Assembly: GCF_009017415.1 (NCBI RefSeq)
Contig: NC_092405.1
Location: 992,001-1,056,000 of the forward strand
Length of the DNA stretch: 64,000 nt
Reading direction: 5' to 3'
From: Aspergillus flavus
Taxonomy: Eukaryota > Ascomycota > Eurotiomycetes > Eurotiales > Aspergillaceae
In this document: positions 18,569 to 60,400 of the stretch, piece by piece
Layout of the letters: every line of letters starts with the position of its first letter
How positions within the stretch are numbered: position 1 is the stretch's first letter
Made by a program: the position numbers and the translations under genes
Notes under the pieces: generated by a model
Told to the model about the DNA's origin: nothing
What the model saw: only the letters and a program-made list of their open reading frames with translations
Database searches by the model: none

Positions 18569-21500
18569 CTAGGCCAAGCTCATCACAAATGTAAAATCGA
18601 ATGGCTCCGTCCTACACTTGTACTTCTCGAATGGCTTAGGACCGACAGTCGCGGATCCCAAGCCATGGTTGTCATAGTCGAGATTGAGCACAGTGACGTT
18701 GAGAGGATTGAGATCATGAGGGTGCTTTGCATCATTCAGGTCGAATGGCATATATCGTCCAGCCGTGAAGCTGAATGAGGCGCCCTCATCTGCACGACGC
18801 ACATCCAATGTCACCTCTCCGTTAGAAACCTGCAGCCATCGCAGGTCCTCACGGTTTCCGTTCTCCTGTGGGTAGTCGTAGTACGTAAATAAGTCCTCCA
18901 CAGTCGACTCATATCGACCCATGCGGCATGCCTGCTTCGAGTCCTTATAGTTCTCTCCTGGGCCTCGTCCAAACCAGCTCACATCACTGAACTCTTTGGA
19001 CATGACAGCCATAAGTCCGATACGGGGAACGACAGACGGCGTGTTCTTACCCACAAACTCACCCCTGGCTTGAACACGAATTGCCGGGTCCCCAGTAGAC
19101 ACGGTGTAAATAAGATCGGCTTCCACGCCCCATTCGAGTACCTTTGGGGCCACGCGGATCTGGAAGTGAACCGTCACTCCGTTCTCTGACTGTGACCATG
19201 TCACGTCCCGAACCTGCGTATGCATCATACCGACCTTGGCCGCATCCCATTCCACGCCGTCACCTGCACTTGCCTCGTCATTTTGAGTCATTGCTCGGTA
19301 GAAGTAGAGCTCCGGTCCCTGCTGGAACATGCTGACGCCATCCACTTCCCAGGTGACATTGCCCTGCAGGAGGTCAAATCCAAAGGCCGTCCCACCGGTG
19401 GTGATGTTGAGTTTTGCTCGGTCCTGGGTTACTTGCAGCCCTGCCTGGCGTGCAGAGGGTGACACAGCACGCCCAACAGCTGCCATTGAGCGCTGGACAG
19501 AAGTCCCAGGCAGGTAGAGCTGGTCCCAAGCCACAATGTGGCCCTGGTCTGCCCAGATTCGATTCTCCTTCAGTTCAAACTCAATCGTTAACCACGCTTC
19601 TTGGGAGACATCATCGATATTTAGTGGCAGGTCCACAGTGCGATTCTCCCCGGCTGGTACACGGGGCAGCGTTAGTTCAGTCCGGTTGGTCGTCCGGCCG
19701 TCATAGACCATATGCCAGAACACATTCAGTCCGCTGAGGTCAACAAAGTCGTAATGGTTGGTCACAATCATCTGGCTAGAGTCCTCGGTCAAGCGTACGG
19801 TGACCGGCTGGATGATCTTGGCGTACTCCAGCAGACTGGGCATAGGTGTATGATCAGAGAGGGTCAGACCGTCCATGATGAAGTCGGCATCATTAGGCTC
19901 GTCCCCAAAGTCACCACCATAGGCGAAATACTCCAGGTCCCCTTCTTTCTTTAACAAGCCGTGGTTGTTCCATTCCCAGACGAGTCCCCCCTGGGAGAGA
20001 GGCTCCGATCTAAACAGGGCAACGTACTCCTCTAGTCCACCAGGGCCGTTACCCATTGCACTTTGACCATTGTCAGCAGCCAATCCCATCCTATCCTGGA
20101 AGTAATACTTACTGCGCATATTCGCAAAGAATCAGAGGCTTATCCGTGTGATTTGCCATGTGCTCAAGCATAGTATCCGGACTGGAATACATATGGCTAT
20201 AGATATCTGCTGATTCGGCCTTCCGGTCCTGTTCATAGTGGATGATTCGTGAAGGGTCCCTCTCCTTAATCCACTGGTACATGGCTGCCTGGTTCTGACC
20301 ATAAAAGCATTCATTGCCAAGGGACCAGATAATCACGGATACATGATTCTTGAACCGCTCTACCACCTGCTGGGCCCGATCCAAGTATGCATGTGTCCAT
20401 TCGGGGTTATCAGACAACCATGTCGCCGCCTGCTCCTCGGTATCTTCAATATGACCAAACCCGTGACATTCAAGATCTGCCTCAGAGATCACGTAGAAGC
20501 CCAGTTCATCAGCCACATCGAAAAATGCCGGGTGTGGTGGCTGATGAGCAGTGCGAATAGTGTTAATATTAGAGCGCTTCATCTGAATCAAGTCTGCGCG
20601 CATTGCCTCGTAAGGAACAGTTCGACCGGACAAATAGTGATGTTCGTGGCGATTAACCCCATAGATAATAATGGGCTTTCCATTAACTAGAAAGTTTGAG
20701 CCACTCATTTCAACCCGGCGGAACCCAACTTTCTGGCTAATAGTACGGCCATTGAATTCGATTAGGATCGTATATAAGTTGGGAGTTTCAGCAGACCAGA
20801 GGTGTAAATCATCTCCCTCTACTCTCTTGGAGTAGCGATCTGATGATGATCCTGACCAGCTGTCGAATACCTCCCCATTCGGCAGGAGGACCTTAATACT
20901 CATGTCACCATCTTCTCCCTGGGTACTCACATTGACGTTTAAGGTGCCAATCTCAAGACTATCATCCAACTCTGGCATGACACTGAAGTCTGTAATAGCA
21001 GACTGAGGGAACGGTATGAGGTAGACATCTCGGAAGATCCCTGAAAGCCACCATTGATCCTGATCCTCGAGGTAGGAGCCATCAGACCATTGGTAGACCC
21101 GAGTCGCAAGTGTGTTGGTATCATTAGGTGAGAGGTATTCGGTGATGTCAAACTCGCTAGGGTTTCGGCTACCTTGACTATAGCCAACTTCCTCGCCATT
21201 GACATAGACATGGAATGCACTGTCCACCCCTTCATAACGAAGACGAATCTGCTGCCCGTCCCAGTCCGAGGGGACTTCAAATTCACGCCAGTATGACCCT
21301 GTTGGGTTCATATATGAGACGTTCGGTGGGGTAGCAGGGAAAGGGTAGTCAATATTGGTATAATGTGGGCGGCCGTACCCTTGCGTCTGCCACATACCAG
21401 GCACCACGATATCATCCCAATCATTCACATTACTGTCCCAGGAGGGGGCCACGAATGGGGAGGCATCATAGTGAAATTTCCAAGTCCCATTCAGGCTGTG

Positions 21501-21656
21501 GAATAGACTCTCCTCACGATCGAATGTCAGGGCCGCTTCCTCGTTCGGGTAGAGGTAAAAGTGCGCCCTGGGGGCCAATGTATTGCGATGCAGCACATTC
21601 AAATTAGACCAGTCAGGCAGGGCTCCTGGCCACCCGGTGGTCGCAAGAGACGCCAT
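18569..21656 (-). CDS. GH2 beta-galactosidase (LacZ-like)
   Basis: Exons 21656-20113 and 20060-18569 are joined by a 52-nt GTAAGT...AAAG intron. Splicing restores CEYAHAMGNGPGG, the conserved nucleophile region. From M21656 the product is 1011 residues, close to bacterial LacZ. The acid/base glutamate is in WSLGNECF (about residue 449) and the nucleophile in LILCEYAH (about 512). The N-terminal jelly-roll carries YGRPHYTNIDYPFP. The C-terminal Bgal_small_N region has SWFGRGPGENYKDSKQA. It hydrolyses terminal beta-galactosides such as lactose. A further in-frame ATG at 21836 adds 60 residues with a hydrophobic start (WLLTLGFLATTGPSLFL), which could be a signal peptide. I prefer 21656 because homologues usually begin just before the PDWSNLNVLHRNTL step, but the upstream start is possible. 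Confidence 0.92.
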
Positions 21657-21839
21657 AGGGGGGATGGTGGACTCGTCACAGTGCGTCTGCCCTGCACCTT
21701 TTGGGTGATCCAGTTCCAATAAATAAACCCCCTCTACCAAACCCCGCCATGGAGGCAAGGCATCTATGCCAAGCCCTGGGGCCAAGAATAATGATGGCCC
21801 TGTTGTTGCCAAGAATCCTAGGGTCAAGAGCCACATTTC

Positions 21840-23055
21840 CCGCGAGATACTCCTCCACTACTCCACCCGGTAGATACTGTAGTGGTGAAGGCCCCGACTC
21901 CCCTCACGCATGGATAGGGTGCCTTGGCACATCTTTTAAACATGCCCAGACGCAAGGAGTTACTCCGAAGGAATTTGCTTTCCCCGCAATGGGGTGACAT
22001 CGTTTTGAAGCACACTTAGTCGATCGCGTAGCCTCTGCCAGCGAAGATTTAACCGATTGTCTCGAGTATCCAATTGAACTGGATGTAGCTTTGCTGTTCG
22101 GAAGGATGGAAGCCATGTTCGCCCTGGGCCGGCCAGTCTCTGGATTATACTCCGAATGTGAATGGCCGTCTAGCGGAATATATGATCTCGAGCGTGAATA
22201 CTTTCGGAAGTCACCACACTGGGCTGTATACCTCGACATTCACCGGGATCTCCGAAGTACTGTTTCTGTGCTACCGAGAGGGGAGAGGTCTATCTGGCTC
22301 CTCCGTACTTTCAACCACTATACTAGGACCGGACATATCGCCGAGAGCTCCGCAATGTTGAGTAAGGAAAGGGAAATATAACGCTTGTGGGGGTGACTGA
22401 GCCCAATACAGACTCCGTCCCTGCATGTCCATGACTCGAGGTATGGGGGCCTAAGATAGATGTCATCAACTCTGACATCAGAGTGCATAGTACCCAGATT
22501 AAATCTACTCGAAGTCACAGTCGTTGAGCGCAAACTATCGGTTATTTCCCCGCACTAGGACGATGTTCATCATTTTAGGATATGATCGTCAACCGGTCCT
22601 CCGACATTTAGCCGAAGTTGACTTCAGTCCTTTGTCCGTACACATTCACAGAGTAAATGGGTATTAGGCACCATGGTGCGGAGGGGGGGTCTTCGTCTCC
22701 AGGGTTAGATAGTAGATACACATAGTCCTGGCGGTACTTGAGATGTCTCTAATTTCTTGACTTATAACAGCCGACAGGTTCAATGTGACTAGCTATCTGT
22801 CTGCAGTATGTACTGTCAGCAGCTTGCTTATAGTACGCTATAGATCGAATAGTAATTGCTACCAGGGAAGCGTTGTAACTACGACTCGTGCGCCATACAG
22901 CATAGCTGTAAAGGATTCGTTATCAAATTTAATATTATCCATAAAGTATTTCCACATTTTTCCCAGTTCTAGATGAACAATCATTGCGTCTCGTTTACAG
23001 GAGCAAGATAATTAACAAAATACTGGTGGAAGATACCGAAAGAAAAGCAAAAAAA
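21840..23055. other. Intergenic region
   Basis: Upstream flank of the beta-galactosidase gene. Frames at 22091-22381 (+) and 22239-21904 (-) are short and have no family features. I see no gene. Confidence 0.4.
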
Positions 23056-23060
23056 GATGT

Positions 23061-23197
23061 TGACGAGAGTGGGATTTGAACCCACGCCCCTTTCGAGACT
23101 GGAACCTTACTCCAGCTGAGAAATTATTAGTTATTTGTTTGACAAGAAAGTGATTATAAGTAGTACTAACCGCCTTAGACCGCTCGGCCATCTCGCC
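23061..23197 (-). tRNA. tRNA-Leu(AAG) with non-canonical intron, copy A
   Basis: The 82-nt mature sequence forms a class II tRNA: acceptor GGCGAGA pairing with TCTCGTC (one G-U pair), discriminator A as expected for leucine, box A TGGCCGAGCGG, anticodon arm CTGGA-GTAAGGT-TCCAG with anticodon AAG after U33, an extra arm, and T arm GTGGG-TTCAAAT-CCCAC. A 55-nt insertion (23170-23116) lies between base 26 and the anticodon stem, not at 37/38. It starts GTTAGT and ends CTCAG. Oligo-T follows the 3' end as a Pol III terminator. It lies 160 bp beyond the 3' end of the TPR-CHAT gene. Confidence 0.88.
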
Positions 23198-23356
23198 TTG
23201 GTTGAATTTTTGCCCTCTTATTTAATTATATTAATCAAAGCGAACGTGAAGATTCAATGCTTCTAGCCGATGCTTTCTTCAAACCAAGAATAGGCAAGGC
23301 CTGTGAACCGAAAGGCTTTGATATATGATTGACTGAACTATCATGTAGTCCTGTAC

Positions 23357-26300
23357 TCAGGCGCCAAAATGAACATACTGTGCCCAATGCAAAGGCCGCT
23401 TGCGGTACTGGGAACTCCTTGAAATCTGCAAGACGGCCTTGTGAAGTGCCAATGAGACCGTGCCGTCATTATACTCCATCTTTCCACCACGACACAGTTC
23501 AGAATAAAACGGCTTTGCAATCTCTGCACAAACAGTATCGTCAGCAGGCCACAGACACCCAATCACGTTCCGGAATCCGGCAACCTGAAACCCGCTCACG
23601 ACATGCAGCACCTCATCGACAAGCCATTTGGATCGGTTCTCGGCGGTTGAGCATGCGGATAGATAGGCGATCTGGCCTTGTGAACAGTCAATCTCGTACA
23701 GACTGCCGACTGTAAGCCTGTCCTGTTCTGGCGAGTCGCCAATGGTCTGGAGTAATAGTCCGCTTTGAGATGGGTCCCTGGGCTCTGATACCCCGTGGCA
23801 GGCGAAGTGGGCAATATGGCAGTCTGCGAGTCGTCTCTTGACTGTGTCAGCATCAGGTTGGCTGAGGCATTCCGCATGAACATAGTTCCCGATTGTGTCT
23901 GTCACGGCGACTATCTCTGCCAAGACACCGTCCAGATCATCAGCACCGGGCGTGGTGGCCATGGACACTGTGAGGAGCTTTGGGCACTGAGTTGCCTGGT
24001 CGGATAGAGGCTCTCGATTCCTTGTATATAAGAGGGCTCTCAAGGACGGAGTGTAAGAAGAAAGCACTCGAGAATTGGCGCTCTCGTTTCGTTCCGTAAG
24101 GTGATTGCCTGCCGCATGAAAGGGAAATGAGCTGGCCAGCCCTGTTCCAACCCACCACACCCTTGGCATGTCTTCCGGAGAATCATGCACTTTATATTGG
24201 AGCCCATCAAAAACAGGCTTGACGCACACCCTCCACAGCCAGGAGAGAAAGCGCAAGTAGGCTTTGTTATTCGCACCGCGGTTGACTAAGGTAGCTGTCA
24301 TGTCCTTCTTGATCCAGTCTCTGGCTTCGTCGGGGTCGAGGCCTTGAAGATGGATTACTTTGAGACCAGTTGAGGAAATAACTAAAGCGTCACTCCCCAC
24401 GCTAGTGATGTTGACGATAATAACCCTACCCCTCGCTGCGCCTTCCTTAACTTCTTCTTCCGTGACTCTCTTCTCGGAAGAGTCTACTGTTGGACTAAAA
24501 TGGATGTCCTCTGTGGGTGCTTCAGATCCTCCTTGAGCTCTCTGACTATCGAAGTGGTAGTTGGCTGCATTGCCTGAGCAAAGGCTCACAGTAGGGGTGT
24601 GCATCTCATAGAGCGGAATTTCAACTTCTGCAGACAAACCCAGCTGTGTATTCCGGCGTTTAAACAGGTCACTCCGGTCATTCATCAGAAGCCTCAGGAT
24701 AACACCGCGTCCGCGTTCTAACAAGTCGAGTGCTTCAATAGGAGAGCGTTTAGTTCTCAACGCCAGGGAAAATGCATATGTGGCCAGACCGGAGAAGACC
24801 TGCACAACCTCTTGCTGATCTTGAAGGGTGAGTGACTGATTGTGAACAAGTGGGAGAACATCAATTGCCGCTGTGGCAAGTGCATAGGCTTTCTCAAGGT
24901 TAGATTGTTCGATGTAGATTGTAACTGCCCGATTTGCCGCTCTAATGCGTCCGAAGGGAGAGGCTCTGAGAGAGTTCCACACTTGTAAGCTCAAACCCAG
25001 TGCCTCTTCTTGATCATCAGAATTCTGGCAATGAAGAAGAAGTGCAAGCTCGTCTTGGCAATCAGCAAGAATGTCAGTTTCAGTCGGAAGAGCAGCGATG
25101 GACTTGCGGCAAATTTCAATAGCAGCTTCAAGGTGCTCGTCGTTGTGTGTAATCATATACATAATGCGCCTACAGCCCGCCATGATGCCGAGGCACAATT
25201 GAGCATGCAAAGGACTTCGTACTCGATCGAGGGCACATGTGAACGTCTGCATTGATTCTTCAAGATAGTTGGGCTCCCTTGTTGCTTGAAAAAGCTCCAT
25301 GAGGTAACGGCCCAAGTTGGACAAGATTGCTGGCAGCCCGGCATGGCTGGCGGGTGCGATTTCGACTGCCTGCCGTGACGCGTGTTCTGCCCCTTGGAGG
25401 TCTCTTTGATCTCCGCTACGGCGATACCGGGTACCTAGACAACTTGCGAGAATATCCAGGTTAGTTGCAGTGACAACCTTGGGCATTTGGGACTCGTTTT
25501 CCAATGATTTGCGCAGTGCTTTAATAGCGTCGTCAAGGTCCCGTAACCTCAACGTAGCACTATATCGGCGCAAAAGAATGCCTCCTAGAGTGGACAAGAA
25601 CTTCGACATTTCATGGCCATAAATAGATGCCAGGCTGAGCGATCGATGGGCTATCTTGATTGCTTCTTCCAGATACTTTATCTCTCCGGACAATTGGTAC
25701 TGCTCCTGGGAGGAAAATGCCAGCCTCTGCAGGATCCCTGGAAGTGCATGGTGGTCCTCAGGCATGATCTCGGCTGCTTGTTTGCAATCCGTGATAGCCC
25801 TTTCAAGTTCAGATATATCCCCAGTGTGCTCAAACAATTCCCGAAGGCATTGTCCACAGAGTGCTAGGATTTTGGCACAGATAACATGATCTTCGCCCGG
25901 TCGATCTAGTGCCTGGCTACATACTTGAATTGCTTCGTGAAGGCAGTCCACATCGCCAGTATTGACGTATTTGAAGTCCAATTGACTGCCTAGATGGTAT
26001 AAAGCCCACGCGTCATGGTCATTCTCGCCAGCCCCAGCAGCCGCAGCCTCACGACTCGCCGAGAGAACTGAATCGATGTCTTGGAGATTCCCTTGAGCCT
26101 GAAAGCGCACAAGAAGGGCATTGCGTAGCAGAGCACTAGAGTTTGACTGAGTCGGATGATTATTAGGCACTAATTGTGCTGCCCTGCGAAATGCATCTAT
26201 CCCATTGTCAAGATCTTCCATTCGGTCTGTGTGCTTGAACATAGCAAACGCGCAGGCCCCCAGGCTACGGAGTCTATTTGCGAGACCATCGTCACCTTCC

Positions 26301-27220
26301 GGCGTGCACTCCACTGATTGCCTTGTTACAATAATGGCTTTCTCCAGTGCGTCCCTATCCTCCGTCTGCGCCCAATGTAAAAGATAGGCTTTTCCGGAGT
26401 TGTACAATAGCAGTGCCATGTTGGAATCGACTTTCGGCGTGAATCGCATTGCTTGCAAACCCAACTGTTGTATCTCCTGTAGAGTTTCGATATCCTCCGT
26501 GCGCTCATATCGTTCACGGAGGCGGCATCCCAGACGTTCAAGTCGAGGGATTAATTCTGAATCATCTTCATCCGTCGCTTGGACAGCCTGGCGAGAAACC
26601 TCAATTGAGAGATCTAAATATTTTGTTTGGTTGTCATGAGAATATCTTTCCTTTAGCGCTCTAGCGAGGTGGTCCAAGAAGTACGCAAATATCGGTATGT
26701 TCTTAGGAATCTCATCCAAGATCCGCCAATATATCGCGGTTGCCCGATCGTGATCTTCTATTTCTTTCCTTTGCCTATAGCTTGCATGAAAGGCTTCGGC
26801 AATGATAGCCAGAGTGATCCACTGTTCGGTTCGAGAACAGAAATGGTTTGCCTTATTGTCTCCCCGTTCACTGTCTTGCGAATCACTAACTTCCACTTCA
26901 CTCACTTGTGATACAATGGGTTTGACTTCCCCAATTAGTTCTAATACTGTGCGGCAAATAGAATACGTCTCCCCAAGATCACCTTGAGCAGGGACTAAAT
27001 CGCGTAAATATCTGGCATTGCGCAACCAAGACTCTAAATAGTGCGGCAACCGAGAGTCGTCCTGAGGTGTGATAGTAAGTAGCTTTTGGGATACGCCTAT
27101 AGCCGCACAAAGAGTTCGAGCATCTCCGGTGCAATGATACTGCTCTTCCAGTAAAAGCCCTTGGTTGGCTAACTGGGCTGAATCCGTGTCGGCTTGGGTG
27201 GTAATCACTTCGGTATCCAT
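23357..27220 (-). CDS. TPR-CHAT (caspase-like) protease
   Basis: I start at ATG 27220 (MDTEVITTQADTDSAQLANQ); the frame is open upstream but without similar composition. The product is 1287 residues in one exon. About 900 residues consist of tetratricopeptide-like helical repeats recurring every 40-50 residues. The C-terminal CHAT domain has the catalytic pair: histidine in HFACHG (about 1142) and cysteine in YLSACST (about 1190), followed by GFRNVIGCLWPADD and the closing PLHWAQYVHFG. CHAT proteases belong to the caspase-separase clan. Known family: TPR-CHAT proteases in bacteria and fungi are linked to gasdermin activation or other death responses. A gasdermin-like gene lies directly upstream on the same strand, 328 bp away, which supports that role. 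The trigger sensed by the repeats is unknown. Confidence 0.85.
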   Translation of the reverse strand: MDTEVITTQADTDSAQLANQGLLLEEQYHCTGDARTLCAAIGVSQKLLTITPQDDSRLPHYLESWLRNARYLRDLVPAQGDLGETYSICRTVLELIGEVKPIVSQVSEVEVSDSQDSERGDNKANHFCSRTEQWITLAIIAEAFHASYRQRKEIEDHDRATAIYWRILDEIPKNIPIFAYFLDHLARALKERYSHDNQTKYLDLSIEVSRQAVQATDEDDSELIPRLERLGCRLRERYERTEDIETLQEIQQLGLQAMRFTPKVDSNMALLLYNSGKAYLLHWAQTEDRDALEKAIIVTRQSVECTPEGDDGLANRLRSLGACAFAMFKHTDRMEDLDNGIDAFRRAAQLVPNNHPTQSNSSALLRNALLVRFQAQGNLQDIDSVLSASREAAAAGAGENDHDAWALYHLGSQLDFKYVNTGDVDCLHEAIQVCSQALDRPGEDHVICAKILALCGQCLRELFEHTGDISELERAITDCKQAAEIMPEDHHALPGILQRLAFSSQEQYQLSGEIKYLEEAIKIAHRSLSLASIYGHEMSKFLSTLGGILLRRYSATLRLRDLDDAIKALRKSLENESQMPKVVTATNLDILASCLGTRYRRSGDQRDLQGAEHASRQAVEIAPASHAGLPAILSNLGRYLMELFQATREPNYLEESMQTFTCALDRVRSPLHAQLCLGIMAGCRRIMYMITHNDEHLEAAIEICRKSIAALPTETDILADCQDELALLLHCQNSDDQEEALGLSLQVWNSLRASPFGRIRAANRAVTIYIEQSNLEKAYALATAAIDVLPLVHNQSLTLQDQQEVVQVFSGLATYAFSLALRTKRSPIEALDLLERGRGVILRLLMNDRSDLFKRRNTQLGLSAEVEIPLYEMHTPTVSLCSGNAANYHFDSQRAQGGSEAPTEDIHFSPTVDSSEKRVTEEEVKEGAARGRVIIVNITSVGSDALVISSTGLKVIHLQGLDPDEARDWIKKDMTATLVNRGANNKAYLRFLSWLWRVCVKPVFDGLQYKVHDSPEDMPRVWWVGTGLASSFPFHAAGNHLTERNESANSRVLSSYTPSLRALLYTRNREPLSDQATQCPKLLTVSMATTPGADDLDGVLAEIVAVTDTIGNYVHAECLSQPDADTVKRRLADCHIAHFACHGVSEPRDPSQSGLLLQTIGDSPEQDRLTVGSLYEIDCSQGQIAYLSACSTAENRSKWLVDEVLHVVSGFQVAGFRNVIGCLWPADDTVCAEIAKPFYSELCRGGKMEYNDGTVSLALHKAVLQISRSSQYRKRPLHWAQYVHFGA

Positions 27221-27548
27221 GTTAACTTGGTCGGTATCAATACGCAAAACAAAAGCATTGAAAGAGAGACAAGGATGAAAGGAAAAGATAATTGTAATTG
27301 TTGTTTGTATTCCGGTGATCTTAGGCACCCTTGGCTAAAAAATATGGTGAGCTCAGCCTCGCCCCCAGCCACGTCACTAACTTGAAGGACCCCTGCGCCT
27401 AGGCGAGGCTGAGTATGATGTCTACTTGTATCGATGCAAAAATGTCAATCTATACCCACAATGGATCATGAGAGTGAGGGGTTTCTGAGCACTTCTAGAT
27501 CATGCCAGTCCCTCTATGGCAGTTTCTATAAAAATTACAGATCCTCAT

Positions 27549-28373
27549 TTAGGCTGCAAATAAAATAGTCTCCGAGCCAATACGATGCTCCTCAAATTCC
27601 CCATCCAAATCCAACAGATCCTCCAACTCAACCTCCACCATATCATCCGCCTCGCTCTGTAGATATCGGGGACGATCATAACGCTTCCACCTAGCTACTT
27701 TATTAAGAGCCGCCGTATCCACATTCCTCGACGAAAGAAACCCAAACTTGACCTTGCGATACTGCACCGCAACAATCTGTTCACCGGGAGCCTCAAACTG
27801 CATCTCGAGACTCTCACTATGATCTCTAGACCCGCCGACCGAAGGATCGACCAATCCCCCAAGCGGCACGACTACGCCCGACGCATTTAAACCTGCAGAT
27901 ATAGGAGCCGTCAGCTGGCCACCTATCTCCTTCCCCTCCGACTTCTGCACCCCGATCCGTGCATCCAGAACTGTATGATACCCAACGACGAGATAGATGG
28001 ACTCGCCCTCGTCGATAACCCGCTCCATCCATTTCCGAACTTCTTCTTGCTGGACTGCGTCCCTAAACCACTGCTCACTGTTATCCAGGTAGTACGTCTT
28101 CACTTGGCTTGTAGAGGTGTGAATCGCGGCTGCCGTGCGGGTTGATATCCATGTTGAGAGCAGGGCATTGAGGTCGGAGGCGAACGTATTGGTGCTGGAC
28201 AAGGCCTCGCTGCCGGAATACTGGGTTTGCACTTTCTCTATAACCGGGGGCGCGGATTGCAGAGCTGGGTCGTGGTAATCTTGGTGTGGGCAATCGATGT
28301 TGCAAAGGAAACGGCCGATTTTGACGGAGGTGGGAGGGAGGAAGAACTGGCGTAGAAAAGCACTTTGACGCAT
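27549..28373 (-). CDS. Probable fungal gasdermin-like (RCD-1/HET-Q1 type) protein
   Basis: A single exon of 274 codons starts at ATG 28373. Length matches fungal gasdermins (about 250-280 residues). The start resembles that family: an FFLPPTSVKIGRFLCN strand followed by CPHQDYHDP, and later an SIYLVVGYHTVLDARIG strand. The last 40 residues are acidic (MVEVELEDLLDLDGEFEEH) and could be the short inhibitory tail removed by proteolysis. The strongest argument is context: fungal gasdermin genes are commonly paired with a protease gene of subtilisin or CHAT type, and a TPR-CHAT gene follows here on the same strand. Family assignment is from recognition, not a search. If right, cleavage would free the N-terminal part to permeabilise membranes and kill the cell. 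I see no signal peptide. A different accessory protein remains possible. Confidence 0.62.
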   Translation of the reverse strand: MRQSAFLRQFFLPPTSVKIGRFLCNIDCPHQDYHDPALQSAPPVIEKVQTQYSGSEALSSTNTFASDLNALLSTWISTRTAAAIHTSTSQVKTYYLDNSEQWFRDAVQQEEVRKWMERVIDEGESIYLVVGYHTVLDARIGVQKSEGKEIGGQLTAPISAGLNASGVVVPLGGLVDPSVGGSRDHSESLEMQFEAPGEQIVAVQYRKVKFGFLSSRNVDTAALNKVARWKRYDRPRYLQSEADDMVEVELEDLLDLDGEFEEHRIGSETILFAA

Positions 28374-28379
28374 TTTTGG

Positions 28380-29680
28380 GCTGGTTTGGGTTGCCTTGTG
28401 TAGGTTGTGCTGTCGAGGTTTATGATACTACGCTTCTTGACGCGTCTAGGTGCGGGGATGCAAGCAACGGGCTTTAAAAGAGGAGAGGGGGTAAAGGAGA
28501 CAAGGCTCTTTAAAGCAGGCAAAAGCCTCCCGGACTTGGCAGCCTTGTGTTAGTGTTGATGTGAAATTTGAATAATCACGCCAGCCTCCCCAACCCGGGG
28601 TGTTTTGCTTTTATTCTTCAGCTGAATGCTGTCCCTTTTGATCCAGGTATGGTGATAGAGGTAAACTAACGAAATCTTATACTATTTTTGGTAGCTACGA
28701 TTAATTCACTAAACTAACCCAGCTATGTATATTGTATTATGGTTAGGGCAGGTGGTTAATTAAGCCGCTAACTTTCTAAATTGGCAAGGCTGCGGTGTGA
28801 GGAGGTGTTATAAATACTTAAGGAAATGTTTATTAGAGCACGAGAAGCTTTGATACTCGTAGGGATATGGCCACAGACATTGAATACTTGTATCTATATG
28901 ACTATATGTATTGTCAATTAGATTGACCGATCGGATCATGTTATGTATATAGAATTTAGTCTTGAAAAGCTATTAGCTCCGTAGGCTTCTGCAGAAACCC
29001 TAAGGTATACTGATTTCTTGATATGCAGGACAGGGACTGCAATGTACTTAGACCAGAAGACACAAGGACTACGCACAGGCTATCTGGACTGAAGCATGCA
29101 ATAAGTTGGTTGAGGAAAAGTCTACACCTAAATACGGAAAATGGTACTTTGTAGTCATTCCATCCTTTACTTGAGTTTATCAGACCCTCCCTGTCTGAAA
29201 GGCTGCAGTTGTCCGGGATATCAAGAGCTTCTAGTCAATCAACTCCATCAAATATTTATTATTCATACGAGCTTGACTGGAGAGATATTGTTAAAAGCAG
29301 CATTCTAGTGATAAAGTCCGTGATTTGTTACAGCTGATAGATCGGTGGCGTTCTCGTAATGCCATATTCGGTGGCCAAGGTAAACTAAGAGGTTGTGAAT
29401 GGATGATAGTAGGGAATAGAGGAGTGGGATGTTCACTCCCAAGTGGCCATTTTCGTTATAGGGAAGTCTTTTGCCATACAACAGTTTCAATGTACAGTCC
29501 TCGGTGATATGCGGCGGTTGTGCTTAGGTTTTCGCATTCGACATATTACATCGGCTGCGAGGCCATACAAATAAAAGTTTGTTTGTTATCGCAAGACTGT
29601 CAAAAAGAATATGCCTTCTCTCAGTGCACAGCTTGGTTGTCCCTAGGTCAAGAGTAGAGAAGAAAAAGGCAAAAAAAAAT
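28380..29680. other. AT-rich intergenic region
   Basis: No gene is seen. It contains the promoter of the gasdermin-like gene in its first few hundred bases and the 3' flank of tRNA-Leu copy B at its end. Confidence 0.45.
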
Positions 29681-29682
29681 GT

Positions 29683-29818
29683 TGACGAGAGTGGGATTTG
29701 AACCCACGCCCCTTTCGAGACTGGAACCTTACTCCAGCTGAGAGATTATTAGTTATTTGTTTAACAAGAAAGTGATTATAGTAGTACTAACCGCCTTGGA
29801 CCGCTCGGCCATCTCGCC
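29683..29818 (-). tRNA. tRNA-Leu(AAG) with non-canonical intron, copy B
   Basis: Mature sequence of 82 nt, the same as copy A except for one T-to-C change in the D loop. The insertion (29791-29738) is 54 nt, lies at the same place between the D arm and anticodon arm, starts GTTAGT, holds AACTAATAAT and ends CTCAG. A run of nine T residues follows. It has the same orientation as copy A, so the two bracket the gasdermin-like/CHAT pair as direct repeats. Confidence 0.88.
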
Positions 29819-30072
29819 TATTGGTTGAATTGCTTTTTTTGTTTTGCATATATTCAGCAGTAACTTTACTATACACATTGTCTCCTAAAGGACTAAATAT
29901 GTAAAATGTTTACGGTGCAGGCAATTCGTACATATGCTAGATCTTTTCTTTTTTTTTATCCCATGAGCCCAATTAGTTAGATATCCATTTCAAATTGAAT
30001 TAATCCTTCGAGAATCTCCTTTCTAACCTAGTAGGGACATAACCCGAGTGATTTCATTATATGTATAGGCAG

Positions 30073-32235
30073 CTATACAATCTCAGTCATGGCTTTAACA
30101 ATGTCTGCGACTGCTTGTGTATCATACTCGGCCGTGTGGTATAGATCAATGTCCACATATCTTGACTGATTCTCCAGCAACCTTATATGAGTCGCCTCGA
30201 GAGTCATACATACCACCCTGCTGGCAAAAGCTTCCGACATAGCACTGCAATATTAATCGTGTTGAAATTTTTGCATGGCAAGTAGCTCCGACGCTTCACT
30301 ATTAATTCGTCCATACCAGTGAGTATCCTTTGGAAACACTGCATATCCTGAGCGCTATACCAGCTGAATATATTGACTTTACCGGGGCTGTAGCCTAACT
30401 TGAGGATGTGTCCTCGGATCTGCGACGGTTTCATTCCATTCGTTCGGTAACTCTTGTACAGCCGAACAAGGAATGGACCAATATTAGCTCCAGTGTATGG
30501 AGTTACAGCTTCAATGATTTCACTGATCGATATACCGTAATCAACGTTTGTGCTCAGAAGTGTTTCGCCGTCCATTTGTCGGATAGACACCTGCAAAGGT
30601 ATGGGCGATTTTGCTCTGATTGACAAGAACTCAAAATCAATAACCCAATTAGCCTGGGGGCTTTCCAGGAGATACTCTTTAAGGAGCTTGAGTACCCGCT
30701 CGCAGTGGCTTCGGGAGGTAAGATTCCATTCGAGCTGTGAATTCTCCTTGTCATCCATTCTTCGTTCCGTGCTGCGGCTCGATGCGATTTGTAAGATTTC
30801 CGCCGAGTGTATACCACAATAGCGTGAGTTTGCAACTTTCGGCAGAGGACAGGTATAAAATTCACACCTAGGTTTGCTGTCCACCAAACGCTCCCCTGAC
30901 CGCAAAAGAAGAAAGAGCGAGTTTCGTTTCATCAGATTACGTCTTTTCAATTTGCAGTCGTATTCGCCCTTCTACCATTATCAGCAAGATATTCTTCGGC
31001 AGTATCATCGTCTTGGCTTTGTCTAGTGTGCTCTAGGAGCAAAACTTGTCTGATTAGGTCAGATGGGATATCTGATTCAGAGATTGTATGTTTTAGCCTA
31101 AAATCTTCTCGACGAAGGTATTCAAATGGCTGCTTCCTTAATGGGGTGCTCATGAATGTTACTCTTGAGCCGCGTAAGCGAATTTGGTTAACCAAGACTG
31201 AGAGGTCGCTATGCACCCCAACAACTGGTGTAACCGGTGCTGTGCGCCTATAGGTAGCATGAAGAATGGTATCATAGAGCGTCCAGGTTGTAGAGAAACG
31301 GCGTGGTCTCCATTTGGGACTTTCGGGGTCACAGAGAAGCAACATATCAACGTCTGTAATATGTAAAACTGGTGAAGCATGAAAATTGGAGAGATTGGTC
31401 GTCAGGAGCCCATAATACTGCCTCTTTGTGATCTCGGCCGTTGGCAGCGACGTGGTCAATTGTCCACCCTTGAAGGAAGTATTGATCAGGCGCAGAAAAA
31501 CGTAAAGTATTGGAACCCCGCATCGATAAAGCCAAGGGAAGCAGAATTTCGACATTATCAAGAAATGAGAGAATGGCACCCCATTGTGTCGGTGTGCTCG
31601 CATACGGCGCATCGTAGTCGAATCCAACTCTCACCGGTATAACATATTCAATATTATCGCTCGCTTTCAACAATTCTCGGCATACTATTGCAACACAGTT
31701 CTTCAAGTCTTGATAGTAGACACGTGTATTTCCATGATGCAAAGTAGGGGATATATCTTCCTGAGTCAGGGGTGCCTAAAGATCATTTCTTTCGTCGCTC
31801 ATGCTCGGGGACAGGGAATAGAGCGTCTTACTGATTTCAACTAGGGCGCGCGTCTTATATGAATAGTTCAACACATCCTTCGTGTATGACTGTGTATCTT
31901 GTATCTCGAATAATACGTCGCTGAGAACGCTGGGTGATTCTGGCTCGGTTGGGTGACCTGAATGGGGAGGTTCTTGTTCCATGCCAAAAAACTTGTAAGC
32001 GTCATCGAGTGTATGTAGACGACCTTTCTTTCCTGATTCTATCCCGACAAATGGCACGGGATGGTTCTCTGGGTGAACCTGCGATGGTAAGCATGAGGGG
32101 GGTACGTTTATTGCACGAGGAACTTACTTTAATCCAGTCGCTTTTGGCTATTATGCCAAGCTCGACTATTTTCCGACGTGTGAGACGAAGGTTTCCAGGT
32201 TGCTCGTGACTAGACGGCGGGGCTAGAACATTCAT
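30073..32235 (-). pseudogene. Broken DEDDh 3'-5' exonuclease-like gene
   Basis: The ATG at 32235 or just upstream opens MNVLAPPSSHEQPGNLRLTR. A 49-nt intron (32127-32079) is well formed. The C-terminal half is an RNase H-like exonuclease: ExoI motif WVIDFEFLS, an ExoII-like aspartate in WYSAQDMQCF, and ExoIII YHTAEYDTQA with the H-x4-D spacing of the DEDDh class. A further intron near 30980-30900 joins ADNG to ERLVDSKPRC. The frame is damaged by TAG at 31776-31778, a shift near 31400, and a shift near 30210 just before the ExoIII motif. The middle region (PTQWGAILSFLDNVEILLPL) is unfamiliar. An intact protein would have degraded RNA or DNA ends. Confidence 0.6.
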
Positions 32236-32239
32236 CCGA

Positions 32240-33430
32240 CTGTCTGGTAGGGCCTTTAAGGATCTCTCGCTGTCTAGCCATCATCTGAGTGACCGTGGCT
32301 GGATTTTGAACCTAGCCGATGCAGTTTTGACAGATATTGGCTTCAGCTCGTTGGTAGCAATGTCAAGTTCTTTTGTCTCTCGGTAGTAGGAGATAACTCA
32401 GAGTTTCTCTGCTACCGTTTGCCTTTTCCTTGTACGCCTAGTTATACCAATTGCCGGCGGGGTATCCGTTCGCTGGGAATTCGTGGAGAGACGTCGGACG
32501 GGACTTCTCTTTTTGTTATAAGTTCAGGGTTGTCGGCCATGAGTTCAACGGACAGAAACCCTTCCTGGTTATGTGGTGCTTGATCGAATCCTTATTCACA
32601 ATCAGTAGAAAAGAAGAATATATCAACTGCTTGTAGAGGTCTGGTAAGCCTAGTGGTTATATGACTCCCAACAGTTTGTGCATAAGTGCCCCACTGCTGA
32701 ACATTCACCTTTCTGGTGGCTGAAAGGTCACGATAAAAAGTAACCTTGCCACTTTTGTACTTAGCCACAGGTGGGAATAATCTTAGCCTTCCAGTATACA
32801 AAGTAACTCGGGTGTGTACATTGGAATATTTTATATCGTGATATTTTATCATGCAATCGGCCTTTTTTTCTTGTTGGTATTAACAACTCTGTCGAGGGAA
32901 AAATGTACTAATAATAACGCATTAGCTCTTTGGTATATGCTACATTAAGAGGGCTTGGATGTATATCTTGCCTAATTAGTGTAAAGATAGGTTTGGGAGA
33001 ACAAGTCTGTATTTTGGGTATATACCGTACATCACAGAAAGCTCAAAGTCTTTCACAGCTTCCTTGTATGTAGGCTATTGACTTCTGTTTTGCCCTATGG
33101 CTCTTTGGCTTGAAAATACTTAAACCAGACCTTAATAGGCATATTGTTGCGTGGACTATCGATCAACATCACTTGTGATTATATATAGATGTTGAAGACA
33201 CGAGGTGTGCAAGAGGAGCATCGGAAATTTGGATGATGCTATTAATATATGTAAGTATCAACTATAGCAGAAGTAAAAACTAAGCTTGAAGAATTAGAAA
33301 TATTGAGAAATTTATGATTTAATATAACCGGACACAAAACATTCCAATCCCCAGGTAAAGATATTTGCGATATGTGCTGACACTGCTTTTATTTTTGGAT
33401 TATAAAACATACTTTTTGCTAGAAATCAAC
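32240..33430. other. AT-rich intergenic region
   Basis: I see no gene on either strand. The open frames are short and compositionally random. Confidence 0.45.
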
Positions 33431-33434
33431 CAAA

Positions 33435-33567
33435 GGCGAGATGGCCGAGCGGTCCAAGGCGGTTAGTACTATGATCACTTTCTTGTCAAACAAATAACTA
33501 ATAATTTCTCAGCTGGAGTAAGGTTCCAGTCTCGAAAGGGGCGTGGGTTCAAATCCCACTCTCGTCA
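33435..33567 (+). tRNA. tRNA-Leu(AAG) with non-canonical intron, copy C
   Basis: The mature part is 82 nt and matches copy B. The insertion (33462-33512) is 51 nt, a few bases shorter than in the other copies because of a small difference after GTTAGTACTA. It again starts GTTAGT, contains AACTAATAAT and ends CTCAG. A run of nine T residues follows after CAACATC. The 5' flank (CAACCAA) is shared with copies A and B. Orientation is opposite to them. Confidence 0.88.
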
Positions 33568-33569
33568 AC

Positions 33570-34465
33570 ATCTTTTTTTTTGGCGTTTCATTATTCCTCC
33601 TCTTACTTACTGTCATGCAACTTAGTCCTACCTTTTGATCTCCCTTTATACCCCAATACATAGATAGATATGTCAACATTGCGTAGTACAGTTCCCGGCA
33701 TTCTTGCCCTCTTACTATTGATAGGGAATTTAAGCACATCGAGTTACCAGGTCTCGACTCTCTCTTGCTTCACGCACCCATAATTACGAGCCTTCAAACC
33801 ACTAAATTAATGCTCAGACTCCACCTCGGTCATAAGCCTGGCGTTGTTAATATCATTCCGGATTCGGTATAGACTGGTATTCGACAGCCTAGTAAGGCGG
33901 GCTTTGAGTCAGTTGATCTACAGGGTACCTTAATAGCACGCTTAGCACGAACCATGCAGCCGTGTGCCCCGTGTGGGCTCTAGGATGCTCCTATCATTGC
34001 TGGGGGTTTGCAGGAGTGTAGTCTCTGTATGGATATCTCCAGTGCCGAGACGGCATTGAACGGCCGCAGATACGAAGTGATGAGGACTTTAACTAAGAGA
34101 GTAATGTAAGTCGTTTAACACAATGTTATCTATGATTAATTGAATACAATTCAAATTACCTAAGTAGAAGACATTGTACCCCGAGTATGGGATAGACTGA
34201 TCATTTGTAGGGCGTAACTATAGCAAACATGCTGAGTCAGCCATAGTCAATGGAGGGGTTTCTTCGATAAATTCCATGAGTCATCTGCCTTTGCGGGGCA
34301 AAAGAACTTTGGATGTTTGAAAGTGCTTATCTTTCTTTCCCGCACACTACTTTGGCTTTCTCCTCCCACTAAACCGGAATTTCTGCCAACCCCAGTCTTC
34401 CCCTGACTACCTTGAGGACACCAGAGCCCACTCACCATTGAGAGCATTACGTCCTTCGATCGGCT
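33570..34465. other. Intergenic region upstream of methionyl-tRNA synthetase
   Basis: No gene is seen. The last 300 bases should contain the methionyl-tRNA synthetase promoter. Confidence 0.4.
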
Positions 34466-34471
34466 GGAAAC

Positions 34472-36428
34472 ATGACGGAACAAAATAAACCCATTCTCCC
34501 CGAATCCGGGAAGCGCAATTTCCTCGTCACTAGCGCTCTGCCATACGTGAACAATGTTCCTCATCTGGGCAATTTGATAGGTTCGACTCTGTCGGCTGAT
34601 GTCTTTGCCAGATATGGTCGTGGCCGTGGTGCCAACACCCTCTATGTCTGCGGTAAGTCCTCTATACTATCCCGCGAACACTATCAAACCTTTCCTCTGC
34701 CACTGCCATGCTAACTGTCCCGGTCCCCCAGGTACCGATGAGTACGGCACGACGTCCGAAGCGAGAGCCATCCAAGAAAACATGACCACCAAGGAACTTT
34801 GCGACAAATATTATGCCCTCCATGCTGAAGTTTACAAATGGTTCAACATCAGCTTTGATATCTTCGGCCGCACAACCACCGAGCTTCAGACCAAGATCAC
34901 CCAGGATATTTTCCTTAAGCTTCACGATAATGGCTTCTTGTCGGAGCACGTAACAACACAATTATACTGTGAGGAGCACAAGTCGTTCTTGGCAGACCGC
35001 TTTATCCAGGGTGAATGCCCACACTGCAAGTATATCGATGCCTATGGTGATCAATGCGACCTGTGCGGTCAGCTTCTGGACCCATTGGATCTTATCAAGC
35101 CTCGCTGCAAGCTCGACGGTGCCACCCCCGTGAAGAGGGATACGAAACATATCTTCCTGAAGTTGGACAAGTTACAACCCGAGATCCAGGCATTTTTCGA
35201 CGAGTCTTCGGCGAAGGGAGGATGGTCACAGAACGGAAAGGACATCACCTCATCCTGGTTGACGAAGGGATTGCAAGAGCGCAGCATTACTAGAGATATT
35301 AAGTGGGGTACTCAGGTGCCTCTGCCCGGCTACGAGGAGAAGGTCATCTACTCTTGGTTCGATGCTTGCATTGGTTATGTTTCTATCACCGCAAACTACA
35401 CCGACCAGTGGGAGAAGTGGTGGCGCAACCCGGAGGATGTCGAGCTTTATCAATTCATTGGAAAGGATAACGTTGCCTACCACTCCGTCATGTTCCCCGG
35501 TACTGAAATCGGTACTCGGGAGAAGTGGCTCAAGGTCCACCACCTCTCTACCACTGAATACTTGACTTATGAGGGTGGCAAGTTCTCCAAGTCTCGCGGC
35601 ATCGGTGTGTTCGGAGACTCGGCCAAGAAGACTGGCATCCCCGCCGACGTATGGCGTTACTACCTGCTCTCTCACCGTCCCGAAACTGGCGACAGCGAGT
35701 TCAACTGGGATCTCTTTATCAGCTCAAACAACAACATTCTCCTCAAGAACTTGGGTAACTTCGTCAGCCGTGTTGTGAAGTTCGTTAACTCCAAGAACTA
35801 CGACAACATCGTTCCCGACTACACCGCCTACACTGAGCCTGCCTTCGACGCCTGGAAGGAGGAAGTCAACGAACTTCTCACCCAGTACATCCAGCAACTC
35901 GATGCCGTCAAGATCCGTGCCGCCATTGACACCGTCCTCACCATCTCCCAGAAGGGTAACCTGTTCCTCCAGTCCAACAGCCTCGATAACAAGCTCGCCG
36001 AGAATGAACCGGCCAAGTGCGCCGCTGTGATCGGCCTCGCCCTCAACCTCATCCACCTCCTGTCCGCCCTCCTCGCCCCCTACATGCCCGAAACCGCCGC
36101 CAGCATCAACGAGATCCTCCGTACCGAGGCTATCCAGATCCCTGATCGCTGGAACGCCGACACCGTCAAGCCCAACCACGAGATTGGCAAGGCCAAGTAC
36201 CTGTTCAGCAACATTAAGCCTGAGAAGGCCAACGAGTGGCGTGACATGTTCGGTGACGAGGAGGCCAAGAAGGTCAAGGAGGAAGAAGCCAAGAAGAAGG
36301 CCGCTAAGAAGGCTGAGAAATTGGCCAAGAAGGAGAAGAAGAAGGAGCAGAAGGAGAAGGAGGCTGCTTCCGCCGACGGAGTGTCGGAGATCTCTCAGTC
36401 CGCTGAGAAACTGAACATTCAACAGTAG
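34472..36428 (+). CDS. Methionyl-tRNA synthetase, cytosolic
   Basis: Exons 34472-34652 and 34732-36428 are joined by a 79-nt GTAAGT...CAG intron with a CTAAC branch site. Product 625 residues. The class I signature HLGN (31-34) follows [10 protein letters not shown]. The KMSKS loop reads KFSKSRG. Two CxxC knuckles (CPHC and CDLC) bind zinc in the CP domain. The anticodon-binding helix bundle follows, ending with [13 protein letters not shown]. There is no N-terminal GST-like domain and no mitochondrial presequence. The C-terminal 50 residues are strongly lysine- and glutamate-rich ([20 protein letters not shown]), probably a coiled coil or a tRNA-binding tail. The enzyme charges initiator and elongator tRNA-Met with methionine. 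Confidence 0.96.
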
Positions 36429-36843: not shown

Positions 36844-36945
36844 TGCGGTGAGCCGGGATCGAACCGGCGACCTTTAGATACCCATAAGGGCTATCTGATC
36901 GAAGTAAACTTCAGTCTAACGCTCTCCCAACTGAGCTATCCCCGC
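36844..36945 (-). tRNA. tRNA-Phe(GAA) with canonical intron
   Basis: The cloverleaf is clear: acceptor GCGGGGA opposite TCACCGC, box A TAGCTCAGTTGG, anticodon arm TTAGA-CTGAAGA-TCTAA with GAA, and T arm GCCGG-TTCGATC-CCGGC. A 29-nt intron sits at the canonical position after base 37 (TTTACTTCG... contains TTC that can pair with the anticodon). Mature length is 73 with discriminator A. One odd feature is a G5-A68 mismatch in the acceptor stem. Confidence 0.93.
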
Positions 36946-57471: not shown

Positions 57472-60400
57472 TTACTTCTTTTCATTCCGATCTTTCCGCC
57501 CCGGAAGCTGGTTTGCAACCGCGTCCTTGGGCACCAGGACCTTGCGCACGGTGAACCCCTTCTCATTCTCCGGTCGGGTACAAGCACTGTCCCCATGATA
57601 GAACTCACATCGAAACTTCAAAAATTTGTGGCGATGTTGATAGATCGTGATAACATCCCCCGTGTATAGTTTGCCAAAATGAAACCCTTCCCGACTGGTA
57701 TCCCCTTCCGGCCCTCGGCGCAACTCCGTATCGTTCACCCAAATGCACTTGCGAGTCTTCGTTGAGAGTATTGCCATCACACCAGGTACAGACATCCAAT
57801 CCAAACCGGCCCTTATCTTGGACTCAATGGCGGGGGCCCAAAATGTCACCTCCAGCGCATATGCTGGGATTCTCGTGTCCATGGGGTCCGGGTAGCAGAC
57901 GGTCGCTTGAGGACCCCGGCCCCAAGATGTCATTCGATCTTCGAGGGGGATGGTCAATTCGAAAATCGACCCAGGAAGTGTCGTCAACTTTCCTAGGAGA
58001 ATTGGAGGCTTCCTTGGCTGGAGCACAATTTTCGGATTCGTGGTCGGCGCTGGATCGGCTGGAGCATCGCCAGCTGTTCTCTCGGGATAGTCTAAGATTG
58101 GCTGGCCGGTTTTGGCATCAATGGTATTTGCCAGCTCGATGTCGAAAATCTCCCCTGGAATCGATTTGGTTTGATGGCGTTCGTCCTTGGCACGTTGCGC
58201 AATACTCTCGGGGCTCGAGCGTTCACTGGCGGTATCAGGCATGGGCAGTTCAATCCGTCGGCTGAAGATGGCCGGTTTAGGGGTTTCGTTACCAGGGCTG
58301 GTTCGCTGCTTTGTCTTCGCCTCCCTTTTCTCTGCAGAATCCCCCACCTTCACTCCAGTTGGCTGTGCCGGTGTCTCGACGACTGGCGGACGATTGTTTG
58401 ATGTGCCAGGGTGCCACGAATTCATGTTCAGCTGCCCAACAAGGTTCTCAGCTCCCATCAAGCTTGGTGCGGATCCACAAATAGGATCCTCCGGAAGGGA
58501 AAGGATGGAGTTAAGGCTGTTGCCGTCGCTGACCATCGACTCACCGGCTGAAGAAATGAAGTCATTAATGCTGAAGTTGTCTCCTTCAAACGCATGCATT
58601 TTAGAACCCAGCGCATCCGAGCTTCCTAACACAGATGGGGTGATTTCGCCGAAGAGGCGTTTTGGTGTTGTATCAGCAGCAACTTGGACTTCTTTTAAAC
58701 TTTCAATATGGGGCAGAGATGGGTAACGAACGTCCGTGGGGGGATAATCTATCCTCGGCCGCTTGGATTGTGCCAAGTCGCTATCCTCTTGCTCAGCGGG
58801 GTCTTCGGGTTCTGGTTCGTCGTGGATTGATAGCTGAGATGCATCCAATTCTTCTTCCGCATCCTCACCGATGTCTGAAAGTTCACCCCGGACATTGGCA
58901 TATACTTCGTCGTCATCATACTCATCCACATCCTCAACCTCAGCAATCCATGGATGCTGAAAGCATTCTCGTTCTGTCGGACGGGCTTGAGGGTCGCGGT
59001 TCAAAAGTCGGGTAACAAAATCGATACCCTCTTCTGACACGCCTTCGTTGCGCAAAATATCAACATCGGGGTCGGTCGTCATGATCGTTCGTAGCATCTG
59101 GGCCCCTCTGTCATCGCCCCGGCCCATATACGGAGGAACACCAGCAAGAATATGGTAGAGAACCGCGCCAAGCGACCACATGTCAACGGATTGACTGTAC
59201 GGAGAGGTTTTCGGTGGTCTGACCATTAGTGCACGTTCGATCATGAAATGTTGCTAGGACAACTTACGGATCACCTAATCTGCGCCGTTTTCTGACTTCA
59301 CCGCGACGATAGGAATCATACTCTGGGTAAACTTCAGGGGCGCAGTAAAGCAATGTGCCACAGAAGGTCTTGAGGAAGGTCTCCTCCTGTACTACTTTGG
59401 ACAACCCAAAGTCCGACAACTTAACTCTTAGTGGATCGAGCGAGGAGATGAGAATATTATCTGGCTTGATATCCCGATGTGTGATCTTCCGCGTATGGAG
59501 ATACTGTAGCGCGTGCAAGACCTGGCGGGCAATCGTCTTGACCATGTCCTCCGGAATCTTGCCAGTGGATTGCAGGTACGTCGACAACTCCCCACCGGGG
59601 ACATATTCCATGATGATGTAGATCCATCGCTCATGCTCGTGGTGGTCCATATATTGAACAATATTAGGCTGTCCAGAAAAGCATCAGCCAAACGATAGTC
59701 CTGTGCCTAGAGAAAGATTCTATCACTTACATGTTTGAGGTCCTTCATAATCTTCATCTCATTATCCACTTTCTGGTCCAAGACGCCATTTTTCATGAAA
59801 CGTCGCTTGTCAAGCTCCTTAGCTGCATACACGGCCCCATGCTGTTTTGTGGCAAGCTTATACACGGTGGCAAAGGCACCTTTCCCTATCTGACCGGTGA
59901 CATTGTACTTAGGCCCGCCTGTCCAGTGCATTCCGTAGGTGTTGGAAACCGTCCATTGCAGAACAGGCTGTGCCGAGGTTTGACGTGGCTTGACCTGCGT
60001 GGTTCCTGCTCGGTGCTTCTGTATCCGCTCAAAATACCGTAGCAAATTCTCCGTATACTGCATTGAAAACCCTTCTCGGCTTGGAATGCGGACGACGAAC
60101 CTAACTTCATCTGAGGTTTGGTCGCCGTTCATCACTTGTATGACAGAGCCGTTGGTCAGCATTCGACTATTTTCTCTCTGGTTCTTGCGAAGGCGGCAGT
60201 TGTCTACAATGGTGCCATTTGTAGATATGTCCTCGAGCATAATGATCCCGTCTTCAGTGAGGTAAATACGGAAATGCTGATTCGAGATACGTTTTGAATT
60301 CTGGTCACGGGCAAGGAGAAGATCGCAGCGAGTTCTGTTCCGTCCGAAACAAAAGCCAGTGTTCAAATCATGCACCTTCGATGACAACCTAAGCCCAATG

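Follow-up and report, generated by a model that had tools for sequence, protein, structure and literature searches.

All nine tRNA-Leu(AAG) genes that we found in the genome of Aspergillus flavus (37.7 Mb, 8 contigs searched) are interrupted between tRNA positions 26 and 27 (26/27). They are very probably functional RNA polymerase III (Pol III) genes carrying a minimal U2-type intron that is removed by the spliceosome. Three of the nine lie in the window, which here means the whole stretch of 64,000 nucleotides analysed (contig C4:992001-1056000). Nuclear tRNA introns are usually left to a dedicated endonuclease and mRNA introns to the spliceosome; this tRNA can probably be made only if the mRNA splicing machinery excises its intron. 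The case is built on what can be read in the DNA, namely the identity of the exons, the lack of another copy in the searches made, the conservation of splice signals, the likeness to mRNA introns, the lack of an endonuclease motif and the T-runs behind the genes.

Four matches to the Rfam tRNA model were found in the window, one tRNA-Phe(GAA) and three tRNA-Leu(AAG) loci. The latter stand where an earlier note on this DNA had placed three such genes with a 51-55 nt block at 26/27. The inserts, which separate base 26 from the anticodon stem, measure 55, 54 and 51 nt in copies 1, 2 and 3. Exon 1 (27 nt) comprises the 5' strand of the acceptor stem, the D arm with its A box, and base 26; exon 2 (55 nt) comprises the anticodon arm, the variable arm, the T arm with its B box, the 3' strand of the acceptor stem and A73. 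The anticodon arm is complete within exon 2 (CTGGA-GTAAGGT-TCCAG, anticodon AAG). Joining the exons produces 82 nt including A73, the length that the note had expected after removal of the block, and ARAGORN called the joined exons tRNA-Leu(aag). The three window copies have the same exons except for one C/T difference in the D-loop, and their inserts all start with GTTAGTAC, contain ACTAATAAT and end with TCTCAG.

A DNA search of the genome with copy 1 as the query returned nine full-length places on five contigs: five on C4, four of them within about 37 kb, and one each on C1, C2, C6 and C8. The insert was present in 9/9 genes, with a length of 51-57 nt. The joined exons of the nine were identical except for the single D-loop C/T, amid flanks that were unrelated apart from short motifs. 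All nine copies gave a class II cloverleaf with anticodon AAG, for which aminoacylation is predicted. A covariance model built only on the Leu(CAG) and Leu(UAA) genes of this genome scored 62-64 bits with each of the nine. In the four alignments displayed, the D, variable and T arms and the acceptor stem aligned, and the extra letters fell in the anticodon-arm stretch. ARAGORN with default settings called no tRNA in the uncut genes; with introns allowed it called Glu(ctc) in seven and Arg(tct) in two, though their exons are the same. A standard tRNA finder either overlooks the nine genes or gives them a wrong identity, and other such genes may therefore have escaped notice.

The check for a tRNA-Leu(AAG) gene free of the insertion, which the earlier note had asked for, came back empty in the searches made. 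Four pattern searches of the genome revealed no tRNA-Leu(AAG) gene without the insert or with an intron at 37/38, given that such patterns require exact letters and could pass over a copy whose D arm or B box is unusual. The pattern for a Leu/Ser D arm matched 23 places, assigned by reading to the nine inserted Leu(AAG) genes, four Leu genes with canonical introns (anticodon CAG) and ten Ser genes. TAAGG followed at short range by a B box gave 29 matches (17 in the control), of which the nine known genes alone were Leu(AAG)-like. TAAG with a B box at 38-68 nt, a pattern that would reveal an intron of roughly 15-45 nt at 37/38, had 53 matches (74 in the control) and no Leu(AAG)-like gene. A combined D-arm, anticodon and T-arm pattern gave ten matches (8 in the control), none of them a tRNA by inspection. 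In a general search for tRNAs across the genome, 63 of 1246 candidates were scored. The anticodon arm was also looked for elsewhere: two scans of viral contigs gave 0 and 1 matches and one of prokaryotic genome contigs gave 5, and 0/6 lay in a tRNA context.

Alignment of the nine inserts showed three invariant blocks, GTTAGTAC, ACTAATAAT and TCTCAG, which together make 23 columns. Between them the middle of the insert drifts, with a pairwise identity of 32-93% (mean 62%). The earlier note had described a block that is conserved yet variable in length and resembles a fungal RNA polymerase II (Pol II) intron, and the GTTAGT start, the branch-like ACTAAT and the CTCAG end indeed recur in 9/9. GTTAGT as 5' site and CAG as 3' site stand at the exon borders in every copy, and each has a CTRAY-type branch motif suitably spaced from the 3' site; in 9/9, 10 nt separate ACTAAT from the end of the insert, despite the differences in length. 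The columns of GTTAGT, ACTAAT and CAG were invariant in 15/15 cases, as against 14/43 of the others (Fisher one-sided 2.6e-6, a guide only, because the columns were picked after viewing the alignment and the copies are kin). The set of U2-type signals (a GTNNGT-type start, CTRAY near the end and a YAG end), a pattern composed after the inserts had been seen, was found in 9/9 inserts versus 0/200000 mononucleotide shuffles. Conserved signal blocks around a free middle favour a U2-type spliceosomal intron, and they likewise favour, among the three options that the earlier note had left standing, that of a Pol III transcript with an intron of the mRNA type.

The inserts were compared with five mRNA introns mapped by homology in three protein genes of the window: a kinase (62 and 49 nt), a cytochrome P450 (55 nt) and a GT34 mannosyltransferase (58 and 53 nt). 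The kinase open reading frame (ORF) is 97% identical to an A. caelatus protein (coverage 98%), and the P450 ORF shares 98% identity with an A. flavus protein (query coverage 93%), matches that place the DNA near A. flavus. The five 5' sites read GTAAGT (three times), GTAAGG and GTACGT; the branch-like motifs read GCTGAT, ACTAAT, GCTAAT, ACTGAC and GCTGAC and end 6-14 nt before the intron end. The tRNA inserts resembled these introns in size, branch motif and spacing. They share with such short Aspergillus introns a length of about 50-60 nt, a CTRAY-type branch motif and a YAG end, and differ from them in having a tRNA host, a GTTAGT 5' site and a higher AT content.

Other known systems offer partial likenesses. 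Canonical introns of nuclear tRNA genes, here those of tRNA-Phe(GAA) and tRNA-Leu(CAG), also sit in multi-copy nuclear tRNA families, but at 37/38 and with structure around the anticodon loop, whereas the Leu(AAG) inserts sit at 26/27 and carry splice signals. The tRNA-Phe(GAA) intron is about 29 nt long (canonical position, read by eye) and lies a few kb from the odd tRNA-Leu genes; the four tRNA-Leu(CAG) genes lie within about 6.5 kb, each with its intron at the canonical position. Outside 37/38, the part of PMC4090602 available describes tRNA introns in Archaea, including some at 25/26, and noncanonical eukaryotic ones from nucleomorphs and Cyanidioschyzon merolae. The archaeal and C. merolae introns depend on motifs of the bulge-helix-bulge type, which were not found in the Leu(AAG) inserts, and those of the Guillardia nucleomorph are only 3-24 nt long, with a removal route given there as unknown (PMC4090602, same part). 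The closest precedent is the Schizosaccharomyces pombe U6 RNA, which the part of PMC10484740 available presents as a Pol III product whose intron is of the mRNA type; reverse splicing was proposed as the origin of that intron. Like U6, the tRNA would be an essential Pol III product that hosts a spliceosomal intron; there the host is a spliceosomal RNA, here a tRNA. That a Pol III RNA can contain a spliceosomal intron is already known, and what appears to be new is the tRNA host and the fact that all nine copies are affected. Literature searches, mostly beyond subscription journals, found no tRNA reported to contain a spliceosomal intron.

Several observations weigh against a spliceosomal intron in these genes. 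The 5' site GTTAGT occurs in none of the five mapped mRNA introns, and the inserts are richer in AT (63-75% versus 47-57%). Outside the nine genes, GTTAGT..ACTAAT..CAG had 21 genome matches versus 20 in a reversed control. Six further invariant columns are scattered through the middle of the insert. GTTAGT is complementary to ACTAAT, and pairing could hide both sites. The two U6 matches in this genome, considered as a second intron host, are both uninterrupted. Finally, Table 1 of PMC6108506, in the part available, lists for A. niger two tRNA-Leu(AAG) genes whose lengths are 111 and 112 bp, each with an intron of 27 nt (position not stated there), which implies mature lengths of 84 and 85, as against 82 here; relatives may thus solve Leu(AAG) differently, and the 26/27 insert may be a young or patchy trait.

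The alternatives that place the insert in the hands of the tRNA splicing endonuclease were weighed against its position and folding. That the true tRNA has a 37/38 intron, with GTTAG/CTAAT as the anticodon stem, and that the genes are not Leu(AAG), is next to impossible. The general Rfam model does align the genes in this way at about 40 bits, with GTTA/TAAT taken as a false anticodon stem, and the non-Leu calls of ARAGORN go in the same direction. These calls conflict among copies with equal exons, the stem reading has no U33, and the Leu-specific model scores higher. We rejected this reading, since the would-be anticodon letters vary among copies, and it would leave the real Leu anticodon arm stranded in a variable region of about 40 nt. 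The earlier note had also dismissed it, rightly as to U33; its statement that the stem halves do not pair was wrong, as a stem of GTTAG and CTAAT is feasible with one G-U pair. Cutting of the insert at its noncanonical position by the Sen/TSEN endonuclease, with a tRNA ligase joining the halves as in Archaea and red algae, is unlikely. It could draw on the precedents in Archaea, nucleomorphs and C. merolae (PMC4090602, in part), on the canonical introns of tRNA-Phe and tRNA-Leu(CAG), which imply that the enzyme should be present, and on the GTTAGT-ACTAAT pairing, which formed as a full helix in 6/9 introns folded alone. In whole precursors this helix formed in 0/9, and the inserts did not surpass dinucleotide shuffles in folding (z -0.73 to 0.59), so a structured insert was rejected. 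A bulge-helix-bulge at the junctions, tested in two registers, showed no complete core or outer helix (core 3/4 with wobbles or 1/4, outer helix 1/3; the relaxed hBH/HBh' forms were not searched exhaustively). The endonuclease route needs structure, and unstructured inserts weigh against it; it also leaves GT..ACTAAT..CAG unexplained.

Two further alternatives concern the transcript and the state of the genes. The A and B boxes can be read from the invariant exons of all nine genes, a run of at least five T begins within 7 nt after A73 in 9/9, and none of the nine inserts contains TTTT. This combination of internal boxes, a T-run after the gene and no such run inside it is that of a Pol III tRNA gene, and Pol III transcription is predicted. 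The absence of TTTT is weak and only suggestive evidence, because it is appreciable by chance under dinucleotide shuffling (TTTT in 0-43% of shuffled inserts, compared with 29-53% after mononucleotide shuffling). It is very unlikely that spliceosomal removal is right but acts on precursors that are parts of longer Pol II transcripts processed like mRNAs. Such transcripts would be capped and coupled to the spliceosome in the usual way, and the introns do resemble mRNA introns; against them stand the intact B box with its closely following T-run in 9/9, the nine copies in nine different contexts and, less forcefully, the lack of TTTT. That the copies are inert, as tRNA pseudogenes or a tRNA-derived repeat, with CUU and CUC read by another tRNA, for which Leu(UAG) is a candidate, is most unlikely, even though insertions outside 37/38 in eukaryotic tRNA genes are usually held to mark pseudogenes, according to the same part of PMC4090602. 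Exons that differ in a single C/T, set in flanks that have diverged, and the finding of no other Leu(AAG) gene in the DNA and pattern searches of the genome, disfavour inert copies; we rejected the pseudogene reading on these grounds, and the option fell away from those of the earlier note. Splice signals are kept while the middle of the insert drifts, and CTT and CTC make up 177/426 Leu codons in eight ORF pieces of the window, which is equally hard to square with inert copies.

For spliceosomal removal of the insert we infer the following course of events. Pol III would transcribe the tRNA-Leu(AAG) genes from their internal A and B boxes. U1 and U2 would recognise GTTAGT as the 5' site and ACTAAT as the branch site, with CAG as the 3' site. 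The spliceosome would then excise the intron as a lariat and join the exons of 27 and 55 nt to give the 82-nt tRNA, presumably before or along with end processing, and the tRNA would fold. The intron may have arisen by reverse splicing into the tRNA, as proposed for U6, and may later have spread through duplication or gene conversion.

Positions of the features discussed are collected in Table 1. The 1325-aa ORF, with a CHAT domain and a weak TPR-S match, sits between tRNA copies 1 and 2, and a methionyl-tRNA synthetase ORF adjoins the tRNA genes. The GH2 beta-galactosidase gene consists of two overlapping ORFs and probably has one intron.

Table 1. Features of the tRNA-Leu(AAG) loci, a control intron and other genes (window positions unless a contig is given)
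Feature	Position	Strand	Remark
tRNA-Leu(AAG) copy 1, whole gene	23061-23197	-	Rfam
Copy 1 exon 1, 27 nt	23171..23197	-	
Copy 1 intron, 55 nt	23116..23170	-	putative
Copy 1 branch-site-like ACTAAT	23126..23131	-	ends 10 nt from intron end
Copy 1 exon 2, 55 nt	23061..23115	-	
Copy 1 T7 run	23049..23055	-	likely Pol III terminator
tRNA-Leu(AAG) copy 2, whole gene	29683-29818	-	Rfam
Copy 2 exon 1	29792..29818	-	
Copy 2 intron, 54 nt	29738..29791	-	putative
Copy 2 branch-site-like ACTAAT	29748..29753	-	
Copy 2 exon 2	29683..29737	-	
Copy 2 T9 run	29671..29679	-	likely Pol III terminator
tRNA-Leu(AAG) copy 3, whole gene	33435-33567	+	Rfam
Copy 3 exon 1	33435..33461	+	
Copy 3 intron, 51 nt	33462..33512	+	putative
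Copy 3 branch-site-like ACTAAT	33497..33502	+	
Copy 3 exon 2	33513..33567	+	
Copy 3 T9 run	33573..33581	+	likely Pol III terminator
Protein kinase gene intron 2, 49 nt	59219..59267	-	control; homology-mapped; branch hexamer ACTAAT, CAG end
tRNA-Phe(GAA)	36844-36945	-	
1325-aa ORF	23360-27334	-	
GH2 beta-galactosidase gene	18572-21857	-	
Methionyl-tRNA synthetase ORF	34581-36425	+	
tRNA-Leu(CAG) genes, four	G000:C3:320321-326871 (L045-L048)		

Collectively, it is likely that this fungus makes an essential tRNA solely by having the spliceosome process a Pol III transcript. All genes found for the CUU/CUC isoacceptor would be interrupted at 26/27 by a U2-type intron, and a nuclear tRNA family of this lineage would have acquired a spliceosomal intron, perhaps in place of an endonuclease-type one. 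If this is true, one fungal lineage has broken the division between endonuclease and spliceosome for a tRNA that it needs, and its translation relies on the spliceosome via a tRNA as well as via mRNAs. With the nine genes, nature would provide a substrate on which to study how the spliceosome handles a Pol III RNA that lacks a cap and has a first exon of 27 nt. The genes would also bear on whether introns enter RNA genes by reverse splicing, and on whether spliceosome activity can throttle translation via a tRNA.

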